Program-made: the position numbers and the translations under genes
In this document: positions 1-7,324 of the stretch, in pieces
Layout: each line of letters begins with the position of its first letter
How positions within the stretch are numbered: the stretch's first letter is position 1
DNA from: an uncultured Parafilimonas sp.
GTDB taxonomy: Bacteria > Bacteroidota > Bacteroidia > Chitinophagales > Chitinophagaceae
Direction of reading: 5' to 3'
NCBI GenBank assembly: GCA_903882935.1
Contig: CAIRZB010000100.1
Span: forward strand, 62,001-126,000
Length of the DNA stretch: 64,000 nt
Notes under the pieces: model-generated
What the model was told of the DNA's origin: nothing
The model's input: the letters and a program-made list of their open reading frames with translations, nothing else
The model's database searches: none

Positions 1-134
1 ACATCTTGGAAGAGTACTAAATAAGCAACCTTGCGGCATTTACCTTGCTTTTTACCAATTTTACATTGGTGGCACGCTTTTTAGCACTATTCAGTGAATG
101 AATTTCAAAAACGTTTCACCAAAAAATTAATCAA

Positions 135-200
135 ATGTATATTGGAATTGGTACCGTGATTTTAATTGTGATACTTATCCTGGTTTTCAGGCGAAGATAA
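135..200 (+). CDS. 21-aa single-pass membrane peptide
   Basis: This is an ATG-to-TAA frame of 22 codons. It starts MYIGIG, continues with an almost purely aliphatic stretch (about residues 5-18, all I, L, V, G or T, then F) and ends in three arginines. That is the layout of a tiny single-pass inner-membrane peptide with a positively charged cytoplasmic tail. A 14-bp-arm hairpin begins 8 nt after the stop, which would fit a transcript end, although no clear T-tract follows. I cannot name a family or function. An open frame of this size could arise by chance, but the hydrophobic core plus Arg tail argues against it. Confidence 0.45.
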   Translation: MYIGIGTVILIVILILVFRRR

Positions 201-207
201 TCCTGTT

Positions 208-257
208 ACATCCGTAGCTTCCCGCAGTGGGACAGTAACAAATGAAGCTACGGATGT
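208..257. repeat. Perfect 14-bp inverted repeat (hairpin)
   Basis: The arms are 208-221 (ACATCCGTAGCTTC) and 244-257, exact reverse complements separated by 22 nt. It starts 8 nt after the small membrane peptide. The following sequence is TCTCCTTAAAAAAA, so it is not a typical terminator on the plus strand. It may be a transcript-end structure or part of an interspersed repeat. Confidence 0.6.
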
Positions 258-658
258 TCTCCTTAAAAAAACTGCTTCTGGCGAGCGTTCACGGCTGTAA
301 AGTATAGGCGTGGTAAGCCACCTAGCTAATGACCCACTTTTCGCATGGGCACAAAGTGTTCTGGCCCTGTTCAAATCTACACAGCCAATTAAACGCAAGT
401 AACGGCCTGCCCTTTTTGATGTAGCTGGTGAAACAGACTCCCTGCACATCCTAGTGTCATAAAAAAACCTATAATATTTTTGAAACCTTACAGTTTACTC
501 AATGCTAAGCAGGGCATTGATTCCATAAAACACATCTATTTGCGCGGGTTTTGGGATACCAGCGGGGGATTTTTCATGGCATTCGTTGTTGTGTCACAAA
601 CCTTTCATCGGTTGGGGCATTGGGGAGCTGTGCGGATAGTTTGGGCCTGCGGCGGCAA
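258..658. other. Non-coding stretch, no gene seen
   Basis: Open frames on both strands here are short, unlike any family I know, and rich in Arg, Ser and Cys as expected of out-of-frame reading. I see no RNA gene I can name. The stretch lies between the hairpin at 208-257 and the first copy of the structured direct repeat. Confidence 0.5.
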
Positions 659-744
659 GTTCCAGACGGAGTCTCATTTTTAGAAGAACATCCAAAAAGC
701 GCTGCGCTAACAATGAGAAACGCAACACTCGTTTTGATTTACCC
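659..744 (+). repeat. Structured direct repeat, copy A
   Basis: This is the first of two diverged copies (the other is 899-988) that begin GTTCCAG, share TTTAG-AGAACA and GCAACACT and end TTTACCC. Near the 5' end is a small hairpin, AGAC-gga-GTCT. In copy B the same place reads CCAGTC-gga-GACTGG, so pairing is kept although bases differ. A second hairpin lies in the middle (AGCG-ctg-CGCT). Conservation of pairing over sequence suggests an RNA-level or cruciform structure; the strand of any transcript is unknown. Confidence 0.5.
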
Positions 745-898
745 GAACAATACGGCGAGTGGGGGTTAAAAAACACTACAATTATTTAAACTATACCAAA
801 CCACGCAATAAACCCGCAAGGCTTATACACCCAACGGCTATGCCAATACACCAACCTTTTATTTTTAACCACCTTTTGCTAACTGCCTGCGAATCCTT

Positions 899-988
899 GT
901 TCCAGTCGGAGACTGGCCTTTAGTAGAACAACCATAGAGCCGCGAAAGCGAACTTTATGGTTAGCAACACTGCTTTTTTAGTTTACCC
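899..988 (+). repeat. Structured direct repeat, copy B
   Basis: This is the second copy of the repeat at 659-744, offset by 240 bp. The hairpin near the 5' end is CCAGTC-gga-GACTGG. The central hairpin is longer than in copy A: CCATA pairs with TATGG around CGC-gaaa-GCG. No protein frame is conserved between the two copies. Confidence 0.5.
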
Positions 989-1079
989 AAATCTCCGGAT
1001 ATCGGAGCAGCATCTATCAGACAATTGAAATTCCTTCTCTGCAGAGTTTACTCAGCCGAGCCCAGTGGAAAGGGAGGCA

Positions 1080-1252
1080 CTCTGCGGCATGATTAGCACC
1101 AAAGCACAATGAAGGCTAGCTGCAAGCATCTTTTGTGCAGACAGTTTCCTAACCATTGCGCGCGAAATTACTGGCTTCATCGCTATAATGAGCTTTGGCA
1201 CAAAACATGCCGCAGCGTTCTCTTGCAAAGCCTTTTCGAGAAACGCTGCGGA
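1080..1252. other. Nested stem-loop element, possible structured RNA
   Basis: Several arms pair in nested order: CTGCGGCATG (1081-1090) with CATGCCGCAG (about 1206-1215), inside it CCAAAGC with GCTTTGG (about 1190-1200), and inside that ATGAAG with CTTCAT. An alternative or adjoining hairpin is 1210-1222 with 1238-1251 (CCGCAGCGTTCTC against GAGAAACGCTGCGG, one bulged A). The outer arm and this hairpin share bases 1210-1215, so the two folds compete. No protein frame is convincing here. I do not recognise a known RNA family (it does not look like 6S, RNase P or tmRNA). Confidence 0.4.
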
Positions 1253-1337
1253 GAATGAAAAATGAACCCAAACCTAAGCCTTACCTGCACCTGTATTTAC
1301 CAACCTGCCCTCTATATAAGTGATTGTTTTAGTCCCG

Positions 1338-1607
1338 CTGGCGCAGGTCTCCCGACCTGTGCCTAGACTTTACTTGTCACCACTTTTCAACAGGCTAAAG
1401 CCACCGGATTTACTGCCTTACAAAGGCAACATAAAAGTTAGCAGCAAGCCGTGTTTTACACAAGCAAAACTAAGCCTTACATTTGTTTGTCGAACGCACA
1501 CCGCTGTATTACGATACGCAAACGCAGGGCAAGCTGCTTTTTAATAACGCTGCCTACGCGGTCGCACACAAGTAAGTGCAAGGCACAGGTCGGGAGACCT
1601 GCGCCAG
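1338..1607. mobile_element. 270-bp MITE-like element with 27-bp inverted ends
   Basis: Positions 1338-1364 and 1581-1607 are perfect 27-nt inverted repeats. Each arm contains its own hairpin, CAGGTC-tccc-GACCTG. The 216 bp between them carries no convincing gene. Long perfect terminal inverted repeats around a short non-coding core suggest a non-autonomous mobile element or a dispersed palindromic repeat. I see no clear target duplication at the outer edges. Confidence 0.5.
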
Positions 1608-1669
1608 TGCGGCACAGCAGGGCTTTTTATTACATCTCCGTAGCGAAAGGCAACGGAAAGCGGTTACAC

Positions 1670-1740
1670 CTTTTGTTTTGCCATGCTACTGAGAGCATGA
1701 GAGAGCAACACGCTTTTGTTTTACCATGCTACCGAGAGCA
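1670..1740. repeat. 28-bp direct repeat, two copies
   Basis: Positions 1670-1697 and 1713-1740 match at 26 of 28 bases (CTTTTGTTTT-CCATGCTAC-GAGAGCA) with a period of 43 bp. Read on the minus strand, the second copy supplies the last codons of the 243-aa frame at 1686-2417, so the present C-terminus of that protein may be repeat-derived. Confidence 0.55.
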
Positions 1741-2417
1741 GGGGGTAATGGAATTTTAGGATTATCAGATGTCATTACCAACAGATAGACAGCTTGGTGG
1801 TGCTTTAAAAAAAATATATCCATAGGTGCCGTGGAAGAAATACCGAAGGCACCCTCTTTTCCAGTTACACAAATATCAACAGGGCTATTTTCCGCATATC
1901 TTATAGAGAAATTTTTACACAATAAATGGTAGCTTAATTCGCTATCATTTTTCGCTATAGTTTGAATTGAGTCCCCCGTTAAAGTAAAATAAATATTTGA
2001 AGCAGCTTTTGTTTGACCTGCTTGATAATTAAATTTAAAAAAATAGTCCATAGCAACAACCAAATATGTATATCCTGTTGAGATTTCCTCGTTCTTAATT
2101 TCTGTGTGAAAAATGTCTTTAAATGTCGTATCTTTAATAAGATCAATTTTGTAGATTAATAACTTGTATTTGTTATCAATGACTGCAACAGAAATTGGCT
2201 CCCGAACTTTACTATTGTGAACTTCTATTTTAGATAATTGTCCAAGGTGTTTTTTTGATATAAAATCAGAATCTTCCAGAGAAAATTGGTGAGTGGTCGG
2301 AAGATGCTCTTTCAGTCCACGTATATTATCGTTATAGGCAGAATGAATTGCTCTTGTTATTAAGATTAAAAATAATAAAACAAAAAAAACTACAATTATT
2401 TTTACATTTCTTTTCAT
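1686..2417 (-). CDS. Membrane-anchored hypothetical protein, candidate immunity protein
   Basis: The protein has 243 residues. It begins MKRNVK followed by one strongly hydrophobic segment (about residues 7-24), then a soluble domain of about 215 residues with mixed alpha/beta character and only two Cys. The shape is an N-terminal membrane anchor with an exported or cytoplasmic domain; there is no lipobox. It lies 26 bp downstream of the orphan Rhs tip (2444-3472) on the same strand, which is where the immunity gene of a polymorphic toxin normally sits, so I infer that role from position alone. The final residues (KQKRVALSCSQ) are encoded by a 28-bp repeat, so the true end may have been altered. 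I recognise no family. Confidence 0.6.
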   Translation of the reverse strand: MKRNVKIIVVFFVLLFLILITRAIHSAYNDNIRGLKEHLPTTHQFSLEDSDFISKKHLGQLSKIEVHNSKVREPISVAVIDNKYKLLIYKIDLIKDTTFKDIFHTEIKNEEISTGYTYLVVAMDYFFKFNYQAGQTKAASNIYFTLTGDSIQTIAKNDSELSYHLLCKNFSIRYAENSPVDICVTGKEGAFGISSTAPMDIFFLKHHQAVYLLVMTSDNPKIPLPPALGSMVKQKRVALSCSQ

Positions 2418-2443
2418 ATCATATTTTTTCTATTGCCCAAGCC

Positions 2444-3472
2444 TTAAAATGCAAGTATCGGAAGAAGTACAGTTGCAAGAACAGCGGCCGCCGCAGTACC
2501 TAAACCTGGCCGCACCGTAATATCGGTTCCGCCAATGTGTCCCTTGTCATCTGTATGGCTAAATCCCCCTGTAACCTCCCCTAAACCAACTCCGAGGCCA
2601 ACGCCAACATGAGCTTCATATCCAAAAGCACCAATTCCCAAAGACAATACTGGAGAACCATCATCAGTGCTACCATATACAGTGCATACTCCAGCTGAAA
2701 TTGAGCCTCCTTCAGGCTCTTTGTCCATACTGGAGCCATCCAAAGTAATAAGGCCTTCCTTTCCAGAAACCTGACCTTCAAATGAACTAATCTCAATTTT
2801 ATCGCCTAAAGTGGTGGGGATTAATTCCTGTTTGGCTGTTTCAAATTTATTTGTAGTTGTGTTACCAATTATGTTTAAGTCTTCTCCCTCGCCTTCGCCT
2901 TCGCCACCATCAAATGCAGCCCCTCCAGTGCCGGCAGAGGGTTCTCCCGAAGCTGGGTCATCTGTGGTCGTGCTTTGCTTAGATGCCCCCGCTGTTGTTT
3001 CGGTGCGTGTCCCATCAGCATTTAACTTCCATGTTTGGATACCATTTTGGTTAGAAGTCATCGTACCCTCTTTGCCTTTGTCAATTGCGGCACTGCCATA
3101 CTTTGCTTCTGCCTGCGACTGGTTGGTTACACTCGCATCGAATTTTGTTTGGGTTACCCCTTGTTCATCCTTGTATTGTACCCAATCTTCAGCAGCCATT
3201 CCATCCGGGTCAATAAACCTGATTGGGTTATCATAAGCATAATTGTAAGGTGTCCACCTCCGGGATTGGTCTGCCTTAGGGTCAACCACATCCCATCTCC
3301 CAATCTGCTGGTCGTACATCCTCGCGCCGTAGTCTTCCCATTCCAAGCCGCTACCGTCACTAAATTCCTTGTGCTGTATTTCCTTGCCGTTGTACTTAAG
3401 TTTATTCTCCAATTTCCCCGCCGCCTGGCTGGATATGCCCGCCATTGTTAGCCCGAACGGATAATAGTCAAC
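2444..3472 (-). pseudogene. Orphan Rhs C-terminal tip (truncated Rhs/polymorphic toxin)
   Basis: The frame reads VDYYPFGLT, then MAGISS from an ATG at 3445, through the Rhs-associated core (numbering from that Met: YNGKE at 18-22, [18 protein letters not shown] at 39-56, [16 protein letters not shown] at 67-82) and on into a variable tip of about 250 residues. Full Rhs proteins exceed 1000 residues, so only the end of one remains. The tip has a Gly/Glu-rich linker (about 175-190) and a Gly-rich segment ending in a hydrophobic stretch ([14 protein letters not shown]). I recognise no known toxin fold in it. The frame is open, without interruption, right back to the TAG stop of the neighbouring gene (3473-3475), in the same frame. 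It could be translated from 3445 as a 333-aa protein or be silent cassette DNA. Confidence 0.7.
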
Positions 3473-4291
3473 CTACTTCCTATTCCCAAACACAATGGCC
3501 ACATAGGCGTTCACAAACAGGTGCTTGTCGGGTATGTCTAACAAAATGCGCATGTCTTTGGTGTAGTATTCGGCATTAACGCCTACTTCTAACGCGGAGA
3601 GTATTTGGTTGTACCTGCCATAATCAAACCTTAAGGCACCGTGTGCATGCAGGCCCGGCACCACCGTGCCATGCCCCCAGCCCTTAAAAAAGCCTGCCGA
3701 ACCGTTTACCACCGTAAAATCGCGGTAAAGGCTGTCGGTAGCCGCACTGTACCGTATGGTTTCCTCTTGGTTGGTGGTGGGGTTTTGCACGTTTAAATAA
3801 TACGGCTTAAGGTAGCCAAAGGTTATGCCGCCGCCATATATGCCGGTAACGGCCACACCGTTTTTATTGCCCTTGCCGCCAATAAGCAGTTGCTGCCCCA
3901 GCCCCAGCTTTAAAAAGTAAAAATTATTTATTTTAAAAGGCACGTACGGGTTGCCAAACTGAAAGCCCGAAGCGTCAACCGGGGTTTGTTTGTCTTCCTT
4001 ATGGTTTCTGTGTTCGCCAAAGTCAAACCACCACAAGTTGGTTTTGGTAAGGGTTTTGTATTTGCCATGCTCATAAAAAGCCGTCCAGCCATCGGTATTA
4101 AATCTAAACCCGTAGGCGTTTTGTTTGGCGTACACCAGTGCGCCTTCCTCTTCTTCTTTTAGCAGCTTGTTAATGCGGTCTCTGCGTTCCTGTTTTTTTT
4201 GTTTCTTTGTACTCGTACCGCCTTGGGCCTGTGCTTGTGCCGAAATAAAAATGGATGCACAAACTAAGGTTACCAGATATATCTTGTTCAC
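3473..4291 (-). CDS. Secreted hypothetical protein
   Basis: The protein has 272 residues, read from a GTG at 4291. I chose this start because it gives a clean signal peptide (VNKIYLVTLVCASIFISAQAQA) and avoids overlap with osmC, which reads the other way from 4332. The signal is followed by a Lys/Glu-rich helix (about 27-50) and a beta-rich body with many aromatic residues and alternating strands, ending VFGNRK. That suggests an envelope protein, perhaps a small outer-membrane barrel, but I cannot name a family. The 40-bp gap to osmC would have to hold both divergent promoters. The Rhs tip begins immediately after its stop codon in the same frame. Confidence 0.75.
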   Translation of the reverse strand: MNKIYLVTLVCASIFISAQAQAQGGTSTKKQKKQERRDRINKLLKEEEEGALVYAKQNAYGFRFNTDGWTAFYEHGKYKTLTKTNLWWFDFGEHRNHKEDKQTPVDASGFQFGNPYVPFKINNFYFLKLGLGQQLLIGGKGNKNGVAVTGIYGGGITFGYLKPYYLNVQNPTTNQEETIRYSAATDSLYRDFTVVNGSAGFFKGWGHGTVVPGLHAHGALRFDYGRYNQILSALEVGVNAEYYTKDMRILLDIPDKHLFVNAYVAIVFGNRK

Positions 4292-4331
4292 AGCAAATGT
4301 TTTGTTAGTAAATTTATACAAAAATAGAGCA

Positions 4332-4736
4332 ATGACGTCACAAATAATATATAAAGGGTCGTTAAGAACAGAAGCCACCCACTTGCAGAGCGGCACCCTG
4401 ATTGAAACCGATGCACCCGTTGACAACCAAGGTAAAGGCGAGCGTTTTTCGCCCACCGACCTGCTGGCCACCAGCCTGGGCAACTGCATGCTTACCATAA
4501 TGGGCATTAAGGCCCGCGACATGCAGGTGCCGTTGGAAGGCACCACTATTGACATTACCAAAACCATGAAAGCCGACCCCAGAAGGGTGGGCGGTATAAA
4601 AGTTGTTTTCCATTTTCCCGCTACGTTAAAGGTTGACGACAAACAAAAAGAAATTCTTCAGCGCGCCGCACTTACCTGCCCCGTTGCCAAAAGCATACAC
4701 CCCGACATTGAGCAGGATATTAGCTTTATTTGGTAA
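4332..4736 (+). CDS. OsmC family peroxiredoxin-like protein
   Basis: The protein has 134 residues, the usual OsmC length. The two family cysteines are visible: C52 in LGNCMLTIMG and C116 in ALTCPVAKSIHP, together with the N-terminal FSPTDLLATSLG motif. OsmC/Ohr proteins reduce organic or fatty-acid hydroperoxides in the cytoplasm through this Cys pair. I chose ATG 4332 (MTSQIIYKG) rather than upstream codons because the longer frame runs antisense through the neighbouring signal peptide. The gene stands alone and diverges from the secreted protein gene 40 bp away. General OsmC cannot be separated from Ohr-like subfamilies by eye, but HPDI near the end and the short length favour the OsmC/YhfA-like branch. 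Confidence 0.9.
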   Translation: MTSQIIYKGSLRTEATHLQSGTLIETDAPVDNQGKGERFSPTDLLATSLGNCMLTIMGIKARDMQVPLEGTTIDITKTMKADPRRVGGIKVVFHFPATLKVDDKQKEILQRAALTCPVAKSIHPDIEQDISFIW

Positions 4737-4868
4737 GAATGATGCCTTTGGGGGCAGATTTTACCTTTGTGTTAAAGGCGCTGTTTAAAAAATAACCGCT
4801 CAGCTTAGGAACGATGTTTTTTTGCTTTTATTTTGTGGGGTCCATTAAGCGGGGGCAGTTTTTATAGA

Positions 4869-4897
4869 TTGTTGGCCGCTAAGTAAAAATAACTTTG
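4869..4897 (+). promoter_or_regulatory. Putative Bacteroidota-type promoter for the toxin-antitoxin pair
   Basis: TTG at 4869-4871 and TAACTTTG at 4890-4897, 18 nt apart, match the Bacteroidota -33 TTG and -7 TAnnTTTG elements. The -7 box ends 27 nt before the ATG at 4925. This is a motif match only. Confidence 0.4.
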
Positions 4898-4924
4898 TAT
4901 ATTGATAGGCCAAATGACTGGGCT

Positions 4925-5187
4925 ATGCAAGAAATAATTGCAGCAAAAACGAAAAAATTGGACTATACCCATCTTTACTAAGGCAAATTATAGATGAGGT
5001 AGATACCCTTAGTACTCGGGATCAGCAAGATTTATTGCGGCAAATTCGGCTGAAAAAATTAGACGCTGATTTCAAACTGCTTGATGAAAAGCTGAAGGCA
5101 AATGAAATAAACTTAACGGAAGAGGATTTAGCTGAATTAATAGGCGAGGATAGAAAACGGCGATATGAAGAGAAAATTCGTTCTTGA
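4925..5187 (+). pseudogene. Antitoxin of a PIN-type toxin-antitoxin pair, frameshifted
   Basis: From ATG 4925 the frame reads MQEIIAAKTKK and then stops at a TAA about 40 nt later. Moving by one base at the A6 run (4952-4957) opens a second frame that reads IGLYPSLLRQIIDEV and continues to TGA 5185-5187. The joined product would be about 88 residues, highly charged and helical (many Leu, Lys, Glu, Asp), a normal size and composition for an antitoxin. The break fits one missing A in the homopolymer. The reading frame overlaps the start of the toxin by 23 bp, the usual coupling of such pairs. Since the partner is also shifted, the pair is probably decayed, unless both breaks are sequencing errors. 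Confidence 0.6.
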
Positions 5188-5570
5188 CAGTTCGGTTTTT
5201 CTCATTTACGCATCATACAATAAGCTTTATAGGCTGTTAGATGCTGTTAAAACATATGGTTTGTGGATTTTATGTTAACGATGAATTGCTTGCTGAGATA
5301 CACAGGAATTGCCCTTTTGTTATAAAGGTTAAAGGAGTTACCCCAGAACAAATAGTGGAGGCGGTCAAAAATTTGTCAGAACGAGTTGATATAATCCCCG
5401 CCTTTAACAACAGCCCCGACCCAAAAGATAATTTTCTTTTTGACCTTGCTTTGCTAACAGGTAGCGAGGTGATTGTAAGCCAAGAAAAAGCATTGTTAAC
5501 TTTTGCCGAAAGTCCGGTTGCGATACTTGATTTAAAATGGTTTAAAGAAACCTACCCAGTTTCATTATGA
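5165..5570 (+). pseudogene. PIN-domain toxin, frameshifted
   Basis: ATG 5165 begins MKRKFVLDSSVFLIYASYNK, the beta-strand plus first Asp (D8) of a PIN-domain ribonuclease. This frame ends early at a TAA after about 37 codons. The second part of the domain is open in another frame from about 5241: GFYVNDELLAEIHRN, then PDPKDNFLFDLAL with the later acidic residues, then GSEVIVSQEKALL, through to TGA 5568-5570. Joined near 5255-5270 these give a complete PIN protein of about 134 residues of the putative PIN-family toxin group, which cleaves RNA. One extra base or two missing bases in that short stretch would explain the break. Confidence 0.65.
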
Positions 5571-5612
5571 TGTTTTTAAAAAATAACTTTTTTGCAACGC
5601 ACTCGCTATACC

Positions 5613-6890
5613 CTACCCCCTGCCCGGCAGTATCTTATTGCCCACTGCACAATCAAGGCAAAACTTTTTATCGCAATAATTCTTTTTAAGCTCAATCAAC
5701 GCTTGGGAATCGAGCGCGTTTTGGTTAAGCACCTCCTTTGCCTTCCATTGGCGGGTAATGTTGTTTTGCTCGGGCGGCAGTTGCAGCAGCCATTTAATGG
5801 GCAGGTCTTTAAACTTTTGCTCATTGTGGCTAACGCCATAGGCAAACAATACCGGTATAACACCGTTTATGAGCAGGGTGTTTACCATTTGCCTGCCCAG
5901 CTTTTTGGGGCTGTGAACGGCTGTTTCGTCGTCAAAGGTGTAATGGTAATGCCAGTAGTCGTTGGCGGTTACGTTCAGCAACGCTTGTACCTCCTGCACA
6001 GTGGCTGCATCCTTCATGCGGGCAAACAGGTGCGTTGATTGTTGTATTAAAGCCGCCAGTTGGGCCAACCTTACCGTGGGGAAGTTTGCAGGCCGCATGC
6101 GCAAAAAGTCGGGCAGTTTGTTTACCGGCTGTAACGAATATTTTTTAGCGAGGAACTGGTATTCCTTTTGCAACATGGCGGGGTAAGCATCGGTGAAACT
6201 ACCAGCCAGCAAACCGGCCTGGCCCAGCAGCAGTGCCTCCAACTGGTTGAGTTGGTTTTTATGCTTTGCGAGTATATTCACGGAAACTGATTGGGCGATG
6301 GCCTGGAAAACAGCCCCATTTACCGGCAAACCAAAATTTTTTGCCAGCACCCACCAAAACACCTCCTCCCAGTGGCCGTTGGACTGTTGCAGTAACGCCA
6401 ACACGTCTTTGGCCTTGCGCATCAGCCTTTCAATGGCCAGCCTTTCCTTCCACGAAAACCAGGCGATGCCGCTTAGCACGGGTAGGTAACTTTCGCAAGG
6501 TATAAAGCCCTGCGACTCCATCAGCTGTTTATACTTGTGCAGCAACATTACGGGTACGTACGGCTGTAACTCAAGCGTGGCTATATTTTGGCCATTTTGG
6601 TCGGATATTGCGGCATCGTTTTGCCAAACCACGTGCATTATAATGCTGTTGTAATTTTTATCGCCCGCATGCCCATGCTGGTGCCATGCCGAGGCGTTTA
6701 CATGCAGCTCAACATTACCAGCCCAAACGGTGCCGCCGATGTTAATTTTTGCCTCAGAAAAATCGGGGCCTTGGTTGGCGTTCAAAAAACCGGGGTGTAT
6801 TATTTGCAGGGCGAGGCCATCCACCGTGGCCAGGGCTTGTTTGTTAAAATACTGGAATTGCCAAATAAATTGCAGCAGGCGTTCGGTCAT
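5613..6890 (-). CDS. DUF2851 family protein
   Basis: The protein has 425 residues from ATG 6890 (MTERLLQFIWQF). The N-terminal part matches what I recall of DUF2851: LLQFIWQFQYFNK, then GPDFSEAKINIGG and WAGNVELHVNASAWHQHGH, then HVVWQND. The C-terminus carries the cysteine group CDKKFCLDCAVGNK typical of the family. The function of DUF2851 is not established. The G-D-F-x-A-K-I and V-E-L-H-V layout looks nuclease-like, but I would not assign an activity. It is cytoplasmic, with no signal peptide. An upstream in-frame Met five codons earlier gives a poorer start. Confidence 0.85.
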   Translation of the reverse strand: MTERLLQFIWQFQYFNKQALATVDGLALQIIHPGFLNANQGPDFSEAKINIGGTVWAGNVELHVNASAWHQHGHAGDKNYNSIIMHVVWQNDAAISDQNGQNIATLELQPYVPVMLLHKYKQLMESQGFIPCESYLPVLSGIAWFSWKERLAIERLMRKAKDVLALLQQSNGHWEEVFWWVLAKNFGLPVNGAVFQAIAQSVSVNILAKHKNQLNQLEALLLGQAGLLAGSFTDAYPAMLQKEYQFLAKKYSLQPVNKLPDFLRMRPANFPTVRLAQLAALIQQSTHLFARMKDAATVQEVQALLNVTANDYWHYHYTFDDETAVHSPKKLGRQMVNTLLINGVIPVLFAYGVSHNEQKFKDLPIKWLLQLPPEQNNITRQWKAKEVLNQNALDSQALIELKKNYCDKKFCLDCAVGNKILPGRG

Positions 6891-7324
6891 GGCGACAAAG
6901 TACAAAAAATAATTATTTGTGCTTATTCTTATTTTGTGGTGCTAATACCATTTGTAAAGTTTGCCCAGTCACCCCTATGGCTATGGCATGTTCTTTTTGT
7001 CTTGATACAAAACGAACCAAAAAAATCAAGGCAAAACCCGATCGCTCCGCGCGTTTTTGCCTTGCCTACGCCACCCCTTACACAACGGCGCACTTTTTTT
7101 GCAATCTTGTTGAGTGATACCTTTTTTGCGACCTGATTCAATTTTTTGGATGGCTTGCTTGCGCAATCTATTCGGGCTTACCGCTCAGAGATTTGGTTTC
7201 CATTATTTAGCATATGCTACATTGCAATTACCTACTATCAATATTGGAACGCAAAATACAACTATCATTATTTATTTTTTTTACTAAACCCCATTAGCTT
7301 TTTTTGTACCCTACCACCTTCCCA
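6891..7324. other. Intergenic region with two adjacent hairpins
   Basis: No supported gene lies here; frames on both strands look like chance. At about 6999-7064 there are two neighbouring hairpins: CTTGAT with ATCAAG, then the 10-bp arms 7027-7036 (CAAGGCAAAA) and 7055-7064. They may be an interspersed structured repeat. The remaining AT-rich part has no recognised signal. Confidence 0.45.

Follow-up and report, generated by a model that had tools for sequence, protein, structure and literature searches.

C-terminal displacement was reportedly described by Jackson in 2009, and orphan tips themselves are already known. In Escherichia coli EC93, an orphan cdiA-CT/cdiI module is transcribed and its immunity protein is made while the toxin fragment apparently is not, and in another E. 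coli comparison homology starts at the VENN-coding sequence (PMC3150448, available part). Standalone polymorphic-toxin cassettes, in which a toxin gene is followed by an immunity gene, reportedly recombine with full toxins and take the place of their 3′ tip (Zhang et al. 2012, PMC3482391); in the available text of that paper neither a leader nor a boxA motif nor an adjacent recombinase is described for such cassettes, and the words “orphan” and “Chitinophaga” do not appear there, the end of the paper aside. In Salmonella, an orphan Rhs toxin-antitoxin module lies apart from the delivery part and is expressed, and promoters are situated in the conserved gene region (PMC7043789, available part). 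How the tips of polymorphic toxin genes are changed is still an open question, and the locus described here, through comparison with detached tips in related genomes, led to a sharp cassette border.

The locus lies in a stretch of 64,000 nucleotides (hereafter the window; positions 62001-126000 of contig C100 in genome G000) of a draft assembly of 5.5 Mb in 114 contigs with a completeness of 99.4%. As in the orphan cdiA-CT/cdiI and rhs-CT/rhsI modules, a detached tip is accompanied by a candidate immunity gene and has a conserved 5′ border; the tips of those modules have no clear translation start, and the first ATG of the window tip stands at 3445. Whereas the border of those modules is VENN, that of the window is YYPFG, at which the RHS-associated core begins, and the cassette sits behind an unrelated conserved gene with no adjacent rhs gene (PMC3150448, as far as its available part describes them). 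The order of toxin and immunity gene is that of the standalone cassettes, and the separation of the tip from its delivery part is that of the Salmonella module, from which the window differs in having no identifiable promoter of its own. We consider it reasonably probable, if far from assured, that positions 3472-1686 on the minus strand constitute an orphan Rhs toxin-immunity cassette, silent and stranded without a delivery gene, which would serve as immunity and reserve and not as an active weapon. As discussed below, it has the appearance of a stray from a system of toxin-tip cassettes that is widespread in the family.

The junction and its conserved neighborhood

On the minus strand, a complete gene for a secreted, apparently outer-membrane-like protein (4291-3473; 271 residues counted from 4288, with a likely GTG start at 4291-4289) ends in ...AYVAIVFGNRK and a TAG stop codon at 3475-3473. 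A 342-codon frame opens at the codon right after this TAG in the same register and runs from 3472 to a stop at 2446-2444; this detached Rhs tip frame (3472-2444, minus strand) has no ATG before the one at 3445-3443. The NCBIfam model of the RHS-associated core, TIGR03696, covers residues 3-92 of the frame from its first to its last position (1-76 of 76) with a score of 51.9 bits against a cut-off of 32.5, and its position 1 at residue 3 marks the conserved 5′ border that is characteristic of orphan modules. The core (3466-3197, minus strand) is 62-79% identical to ten relatives, and in a PDB search it matched YenC2 residues 610-698 (E 1.3e-5) as well as TcdB2-TccC3 entries and two salivary gland surface proteins, with no match to the tip frame past approximately residue 98. 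The Rhs part begins at YYPFG, two codons past the TAG, and the V-D codons in between are assignable to neither side. No RHS repeats stand upstream of the core; in place of an RHS repeat shell with an N-terminal export signal there is the 342-codon frame alone, such that the window holds core plus tip with the delivery part absent, as in an orphan module. A first-pass annotation had placed an Rhs frame directly behind this TAG and in its register, and had reported that full Rhs sequence is absent; the coordinates and the full-length model match confirm the observation. A shared frame by itself has a one-in-three chance, but a complete core model abutting a conserved stop is not a chance open frame.

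It might be argued that two unrelated stretches were joined at 3472 by the assembly, which is after all a draft of 114 contigs. Yet the junction lies at approximately position 65,473 of a 190,871-base contig, distant from its ends and with conserved neighbors on both sides, the tip sequence beyond the core occurs a single time in the assembly, and none of the repeats of at least 25 nt detected in the region falls on the junction. The single-copy tip and the repeat-free junction leave a misassembly unsupported, and we regard it as very improbable. An intact rhs gene elsewhere in the assembly that ends in the window tip, which the first-pass annotation had named as the sign of such an artefact, was looked for and not found.

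The upstream protein belongs to no family that Pfam or NCBIfam would recognize at E≤0.1 and is matched at E≤0.001 in 269 of the 294 genomes of the family sample, its own genome counted. The gene had no match in the remaining two genomes of the genus, which are 63% and 69% complete, so that no empty site could be obtained within the genus. Among the 29 best relatives of the protein, the last residues are FG-x-RK in 28 and FGKRN in the other, the stop codon at the place of the window's TAG is TAA, TGA or TAG, and in all 29 lipA lies on the same strand and begins approximately 18-238 bp past this stop (with the start extrapolated from the alignment). In the window genome, lipA is found on the same contig and strand, outside the window at about C100:58833-59846, and the gap between the surface-protein gene and lipA measures 5717 bp. 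This difference in spacing places the tip in an island of approximately 5.7 kb between conserved neighbors, of which positions 1-3472 belong to the window. An OsmC-family gene on the plus strand (4332-4736; PF02566, E 9.5e-13) is a further conserved neighbor that fixes the locus, and by eye an OsmC-like frame occupies the same place among the relatives listed. Also by eye, an element resembling TAnnTTTG or TAnnnTTTG immediately follows the stop of the surface-protein gene in 27 of the 29 relatives and may be the promoter of lipA. The window instead has GTTGAC after the stop and then the tip, and the element is no longer at that place, which puts the join within approximately six bases of the stop.

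The comparison with relatives that had been proposed as a check for an empty version of the locus thus yielded a site without the tip in 29 of the 29 examined. The core model at the very start of the frame and the lipA spacing in the relatives both argue for an orphan cassette, as does the minus strand from 3802 down to 1200, where no terminator-like site was flagged. Conversely, the island presumably also carries a rubrerythrin-like gene and a gene for a small membrane protein; the tip may have come along with these other genes, which speaks against a cassette moved as such.

Several repeats were observed in and around the island. A 40-nt inverted repeat (1338-1377 and 1568-1607) is 90% complementary, similar copies of other island sequences adjoin an Rhs fragment on contig C38, and near lipA on C100 (L004 3267-3750) a 161-nt unit occurs three times in tandem with 71-100% identity. 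Elsewhere in the window, what we take to be a PIN-like toxin gene (5166-5570), seemingly broken by a frame change near 5240, is preceded by a frame that we assume to be a possible antitoxin.

The variable tip, its candidate immunity gene and other Rhs pieces

Beyond the core, the frame continues as a variable tip (3196-2447, minus strand), the C-terminal part of which is the presumed toxin domain (C-terminal 128 aa, 2830-2447). When these 128 residues were searched against 395 genomes of a phylum sample, one relative was found, a 50% identical sequence in G071 that is a detached tip too, and nothing in the other 393, the window's own genome aside. A candidate immunity gene of 243 aa (2417-1686, minus strand) starts 26 nt behind the tip stop, and homologues of it were found in G071, where the related tip precedes it (43% over 228 aa), and in the same-genus genome G001, where it follows an rhs frame of 1353 aa (28% over 212 aa). 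By virtue of these homologues, 2417-1686 would represent the downstream cognate immunity gene that marks an orphan module, and the related pair in G071 and the immunity-gene homologue in G001 support a candidate toxin-immunity pair. For the tip and the candidate immunity protein no Pfam family was found at E≤0.01 and NCBIfam names neither a toxin nor an immunity protein; the candidate immunity protein has no match in the PDB at E≤1, and an Rfam search over window positions 1-7000 gave a single match, at chance level.

If these parts form an orphan cassette, it would comprise approximately 270 nt of conserved Rhs core, the variable toxin tip and the immunity gene, and would be transcribed together with the upstream surface-protein gene. 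The tip would be translated little or not at all because there is no start at its beginning, while the candidate immunity protein would be made from the co-transcript; the precedent for a co-transcribed, silent toxin of this kind is the orphan cdiA-CT/cdiI module of EC93 (PMC3150448, available part). The core piece would likely act as a homology arm for loading the tip onto an rhs gene, and the cassette would be stranded insofar as the longest rhs piece found in the genome, an 846-codon frame on C38, is 5′-truncated. With the N-terminal 700 aa of the G001 rhs frame as query, one place in the genome was recovered, again on C38, and there only query residues 633-700 were matched. No intact rhs gene was found in the 114-contig assembly, and one that is missing from the assembly may still be present in the genome.

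A second detached tip of the same genome, on C97 (G000:C97:59469; L009 1-1456, L277 7777-12393), also lies directly behind the TAG of another secreted-protein gene. Its host gene is a 1210-aa frame ending in KGSVVLVR, with the TAG 15 nt before the border and the tip in frame; the core of this tip contains a stop codon and scores 30.1 bits, under the TIGR03696 cut-off of 32.5. At the edge of contig C3 (L006 1-478), an Rhs tip fragment is joined to non-Rhs sequence that by eye resembles an insertion-sequence end.

The lack of an intact rhs gene in the assembly, the stop codon in the C97 core and the repeats in the island would also fit a decaying remnant, that is, a tip left behind by recombination and kept by nothing. 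Since the frames of the tip and of the candidate immunity gene are open over their full length and have counterparts in other genomes, we hold decay to be possible, if unlikely. Quite improbable, in our view, is a toxin-antitoxin-like module whose tip would be translated in the cell from an internal start, for example ATG 3445, and restrained by the immunity protein. Such a module would accord with Salmonella, where main and orphan Rhs tips show internal transcription and low translation (PMC7043789, available part), and with the predominance of ATG as the commonest codon at the place of 3445 in longer copies (61 of 112 rows, a part of which are misaligned); that ATG 3445-3443 could start the tip without a delivery part weighs against a silent cassette. 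Standing in its way are the want of an own promoter or leader identified in the window and the sequence before the ATG, which is core-coding and from which initiation would be poor. A scan for sigma-70-type promoters, the consensus of which differs from that of Bacteroidota, returned two minus-strand sites at approximately 3489-3444 with 9 of 12 matches, and 11 sites in the region overall against 5.6 expected.

Detached tips across the family sample

Among the matches listed, which were drawn by similarity to the window core, 221 distinct core sites were distinguished, 202 of them with at least 200 nt upstream. Tips with fewer than 50 open codons upstream were classed as detached (85 sites among the matches listed), including two, L145 (-3) and L220 (-8), that lie at locus edges and whose upstream sequence is invalid. 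The sites are related and some come from one genome, and the upstream stops considered below belong to mechanically found frames of at least 80 aa and not to proven genes. The border falls at residues 195-204 (YYP = 201) in 52 of these 85 detached tips and at residue 192 or later in 64 (both among the matches listed); L145 and L220 are included in the 64 sharp-border tips, scored as having neither motif nor stop. The border in the window is therefore the usual one, and this shared border, together with the related pair in G071 and the immunity-gene homologue in G001, favors an orphan cassette.

The detached tips show two arrangements that nearly exclude each other, namely a short leader with GTTCTTTGA or a close co-directional stop, and either would give transcription. 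A motif of the form [GA][TC]TCTTTGA lies at most 110 nt upstream of 36 of the 64 sharp-border tips and is absent in 28, and a co-directional stop within 45 nt of the border accompanies one of the 36 tips with the motif vs 17 of the 28 without it (among the matches listed, a few core remnants being taken in; Fisher p 2e-7, or 6e-8 with the 26 valid upstream sequences, 17/26). With its stop 6 nt from the border, the window is the tightest of the close-stop tips. The rule of two arrangements is incomplete, as motif and close stop are both missing from 11 of the 64 (including the two with invalid upstream sequence), which counts against the interpretation of the window as an orphan cassette. In 11 of the 17 close-stop tips another Rhs core lies 1.1-2.3 kb upstream, as expected for tip-immunity arrays; none lies there at the window, where the upstream gene is non-Rhs and the usual position downstream of a main rhs or cdi locus is not found, and this departure from the 11 comparable cases is a further point against that interpretation. 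In a second set of 23 new detached sites, 15 of them with a sharp border and with genomes partly common to the first set, the motif precedes nine of the 15 and GATCTTTGA another two; none of the nine tips with the motif and one of the six without it were found to lie within 45 nt of a stop, that one being the C97 tip, known beforehand.

Tips situated at most 45 nt behind a stop are in frame with it in 10 of 17 cases, or 11 of 18 when C97 is included, against one-third expected (one-sided p 0.027 and 0.014, uncorrected), which as a pointer to read-through is a weak hint at most. The first-pass annotation had supposed that reading through the stop would produce an exported protein fused to the tip, and that recombination had brought in a spare tip cassette. 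Programmed or frequent read-through of TAG 3475-3473 would draw on the shared frame with its single intervening stop, on C97 as a second such junction in the genome and on the in-frame tips just mentioned; the fusion would be without an Rhs shell, however, the junction occurs in none of the 29 relatives examined, and the upstream protein, which is whole and ends as its relatives do, is conserved with no tip attached. A read-through fusion, rejected on account of the complete upstream gene and of lipA behind the stop in 29/29 relatives, is scarcely credible to us. The exported fusion is accordingly given up, while the idea of a recombination-borne spare tip is supported by the border common to detached tips of the family and by the 29 relatives without a tip.

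In four tip pairs, DNA identity amounts to 68-87% at 280-600 nt behind YYP and to 48-60% at -300 to -20 (46-53% when shuffled), and the point at which identity changes varies between about -20 and +280 nt. The pattern in these pairs, the unequal distribution of close stops and the array-like setting of most close-stop tips are consistent with an orphan cassette at the window. A fixed YYPFG crossover for tip exchange was considered and rejected on the scatter of the identity steps, which ordinary homologous recombination within the core would explain no less well.

A nine-base motif and a tyrosine recombinase

Comparison of the locus with its counterparts also led to a nine-base signal present in coding and non-coding copies, and to a recombinase family at some array borders. 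The nine bases GTTCTTTGA occur 74 times in 937,156 nt (both strands, L069-L128) and, in 32 of the 64 tips with a sharp border, are found no more than 150 nt upstream, where approximately 0.7 would be expected (among the matches listed); with evident core remnants set aside, 29 of these 32 tips are left. In 12 of the 29, a sequence like the promoter element TAnnTTTG is found at most 38 nt upstream, compared with 2.8 on average and never more than 7 over 500 mononucleotide shuffles. Over 13 aligned sites the leader is approximately 130 nt long and consists of CAATTGAAA, TATTTTGG or similar, GTTCTTTGA and then some 57 nt; loci with a conserved leader upstream of detached tips are L047, L056, L070, L088, L097, L104, L145, L163, L193, L199 and L201. 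Single folds are suggestive of a conserved leader hairpin, for which we make no claim, and Rfam at its gathering score returned no family in 12 Rhs-tip loci. The leader motif was searched for in the window and is absent, a result that goes against the view of the window tip as an orphan cassette.

A boxA at CRISPR arrays has reportedly been described in an eLife paper. All 14 16S rRNA leaders found (in 8 of 14 genomes searched) carry a motif similar to GTTCTTTGA 121-172 nt before the gene, in the form GTTCTTTGAAAG in eight (three genomes) and GATCTTTGAAAG in six (five genomes), and the motif of the tips is identical to that of the rRNA leaders for only 8 of the 14. By its position and by the gamma-proteobacterial boxA consensus, GYTCTTTAANA (PMC5725501, available part), GTTCTTTGA may be boxA-like. 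Two observations argue against a plain boxA reading. First, in G161, G101, G238 and G173 the 16S leaders have GATCTTTGA while the detached tips mostly have GTTCTTTGA. Second, boxA is present upstream of suhB and of a ParE-like toxin, and at suhB the Nus factors repress translation and thereby promote Rho-dependent termination, whereas in reporter constructs they prevent it (PMC5725501, available part); a boxA near the suhB start thus promotes termination by Rho. A boxA-like motif might accordingly serve transcription through an untranslated tip, or else silence the tip. If the boxA reading is true, it would explain the expression of immunity genes behind silent toxins.

Longer-core rhs copies hold the nine bases of GTTCTTTGA within coding sequence, at -58 from YYPFG (e.g. 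L125, L049, L051). They are present there in 49 of 112 such copies, and in 49 of the 50 that encode Phe-Phe-Asp at this place; the first Phe codon is TTC in 50/50 of these and the neighboring codons mostly vary, against a codon background of TTC-TTT in 91 of 267 Phe pairs and GTG in 1717 of 6574 Val codons. Copies with other residues at -58 do not have the nine bases, 17 of them encoding Y, I or V followed by F and by D or E. The border Tyr is biased as well (TAT in 65 of 68), and in the second set the nine bases occur in 8 of 13 longer-core copies, which is less clear than 49 of 50. Kinship contributes to this conservation, yet would not alone be expected to fix one codon amid varying neighbors.

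The tip relative in G071 lies 98 nt behind a tyrosine recombinase gene, and a recombinase of this kind was found at nine distinct sites among the Rhs-core loci (a 24%-identical match excluded), in seven directly before the tip and on the same strand, with L198 divergent and L085 convergent. At E≤1e-40 the family is represented by one copy each in 16 of the 294 genomes and was not found in G000. An Rhs core start follows 87-114 nt behind eight of the 16 copies, seven of these eight with the motif, and no Rhs core start was found behind seven others; one copy is cut by a contig end. The eight include a copy in G002, of the window's genus, and one in G009 that was added by eye and reads YYPGG.

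A recombinase before tips looks like an integron platform, and the comparison with integrons rests on the succession of a tyrosine recombinase gene and an Rhs tip start at these 8 of 16 sites, with the recombinase mostly in the orientation of the tips (7 of 9 distinct sites) and not found in the window genome. It is tentatively conceivable, though on balance unlikely, that Chitinophagaceae-like bacteria maintain their Rhs tips in an integron-like manner, that a dedicated recombinase cuts at the YYPFG site, that cassettes with a boxA-like GTTCTTTGA leader are stored or loaded onto rhs genes, and that the window and C97 tips are strays. Each tip-immunity cassette would then start at the YYPFG cut and could either be kept in an array or be joined in frame to an rhs gene; the GTTCTTTGA leader would let RNA polymerase pass the untranslated tip such that the immunity gene is expressed; the nine bases within rhs coding sequence, 58 nt before the border, would signal antitermination or recombination; and the window and C97 tips would have strayed behind the stops of unrelated secreted-protein genes. 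The scattered identity steps of the tip pairs count against such a process. If the recombinase reading is true, tip switching would be site-specific and integron-like. In a non-exhaustive search of the open-access literature, neither a boxA leader nor a recombinase dedicated to Rhs tips was found described. The loci at which the recombinase stands before a tip are L294-L296, L298-L301 and L308; PF00589 is shown for two copies of the recombinase, and to the left of several copies lie what we take to be ordinary genes.
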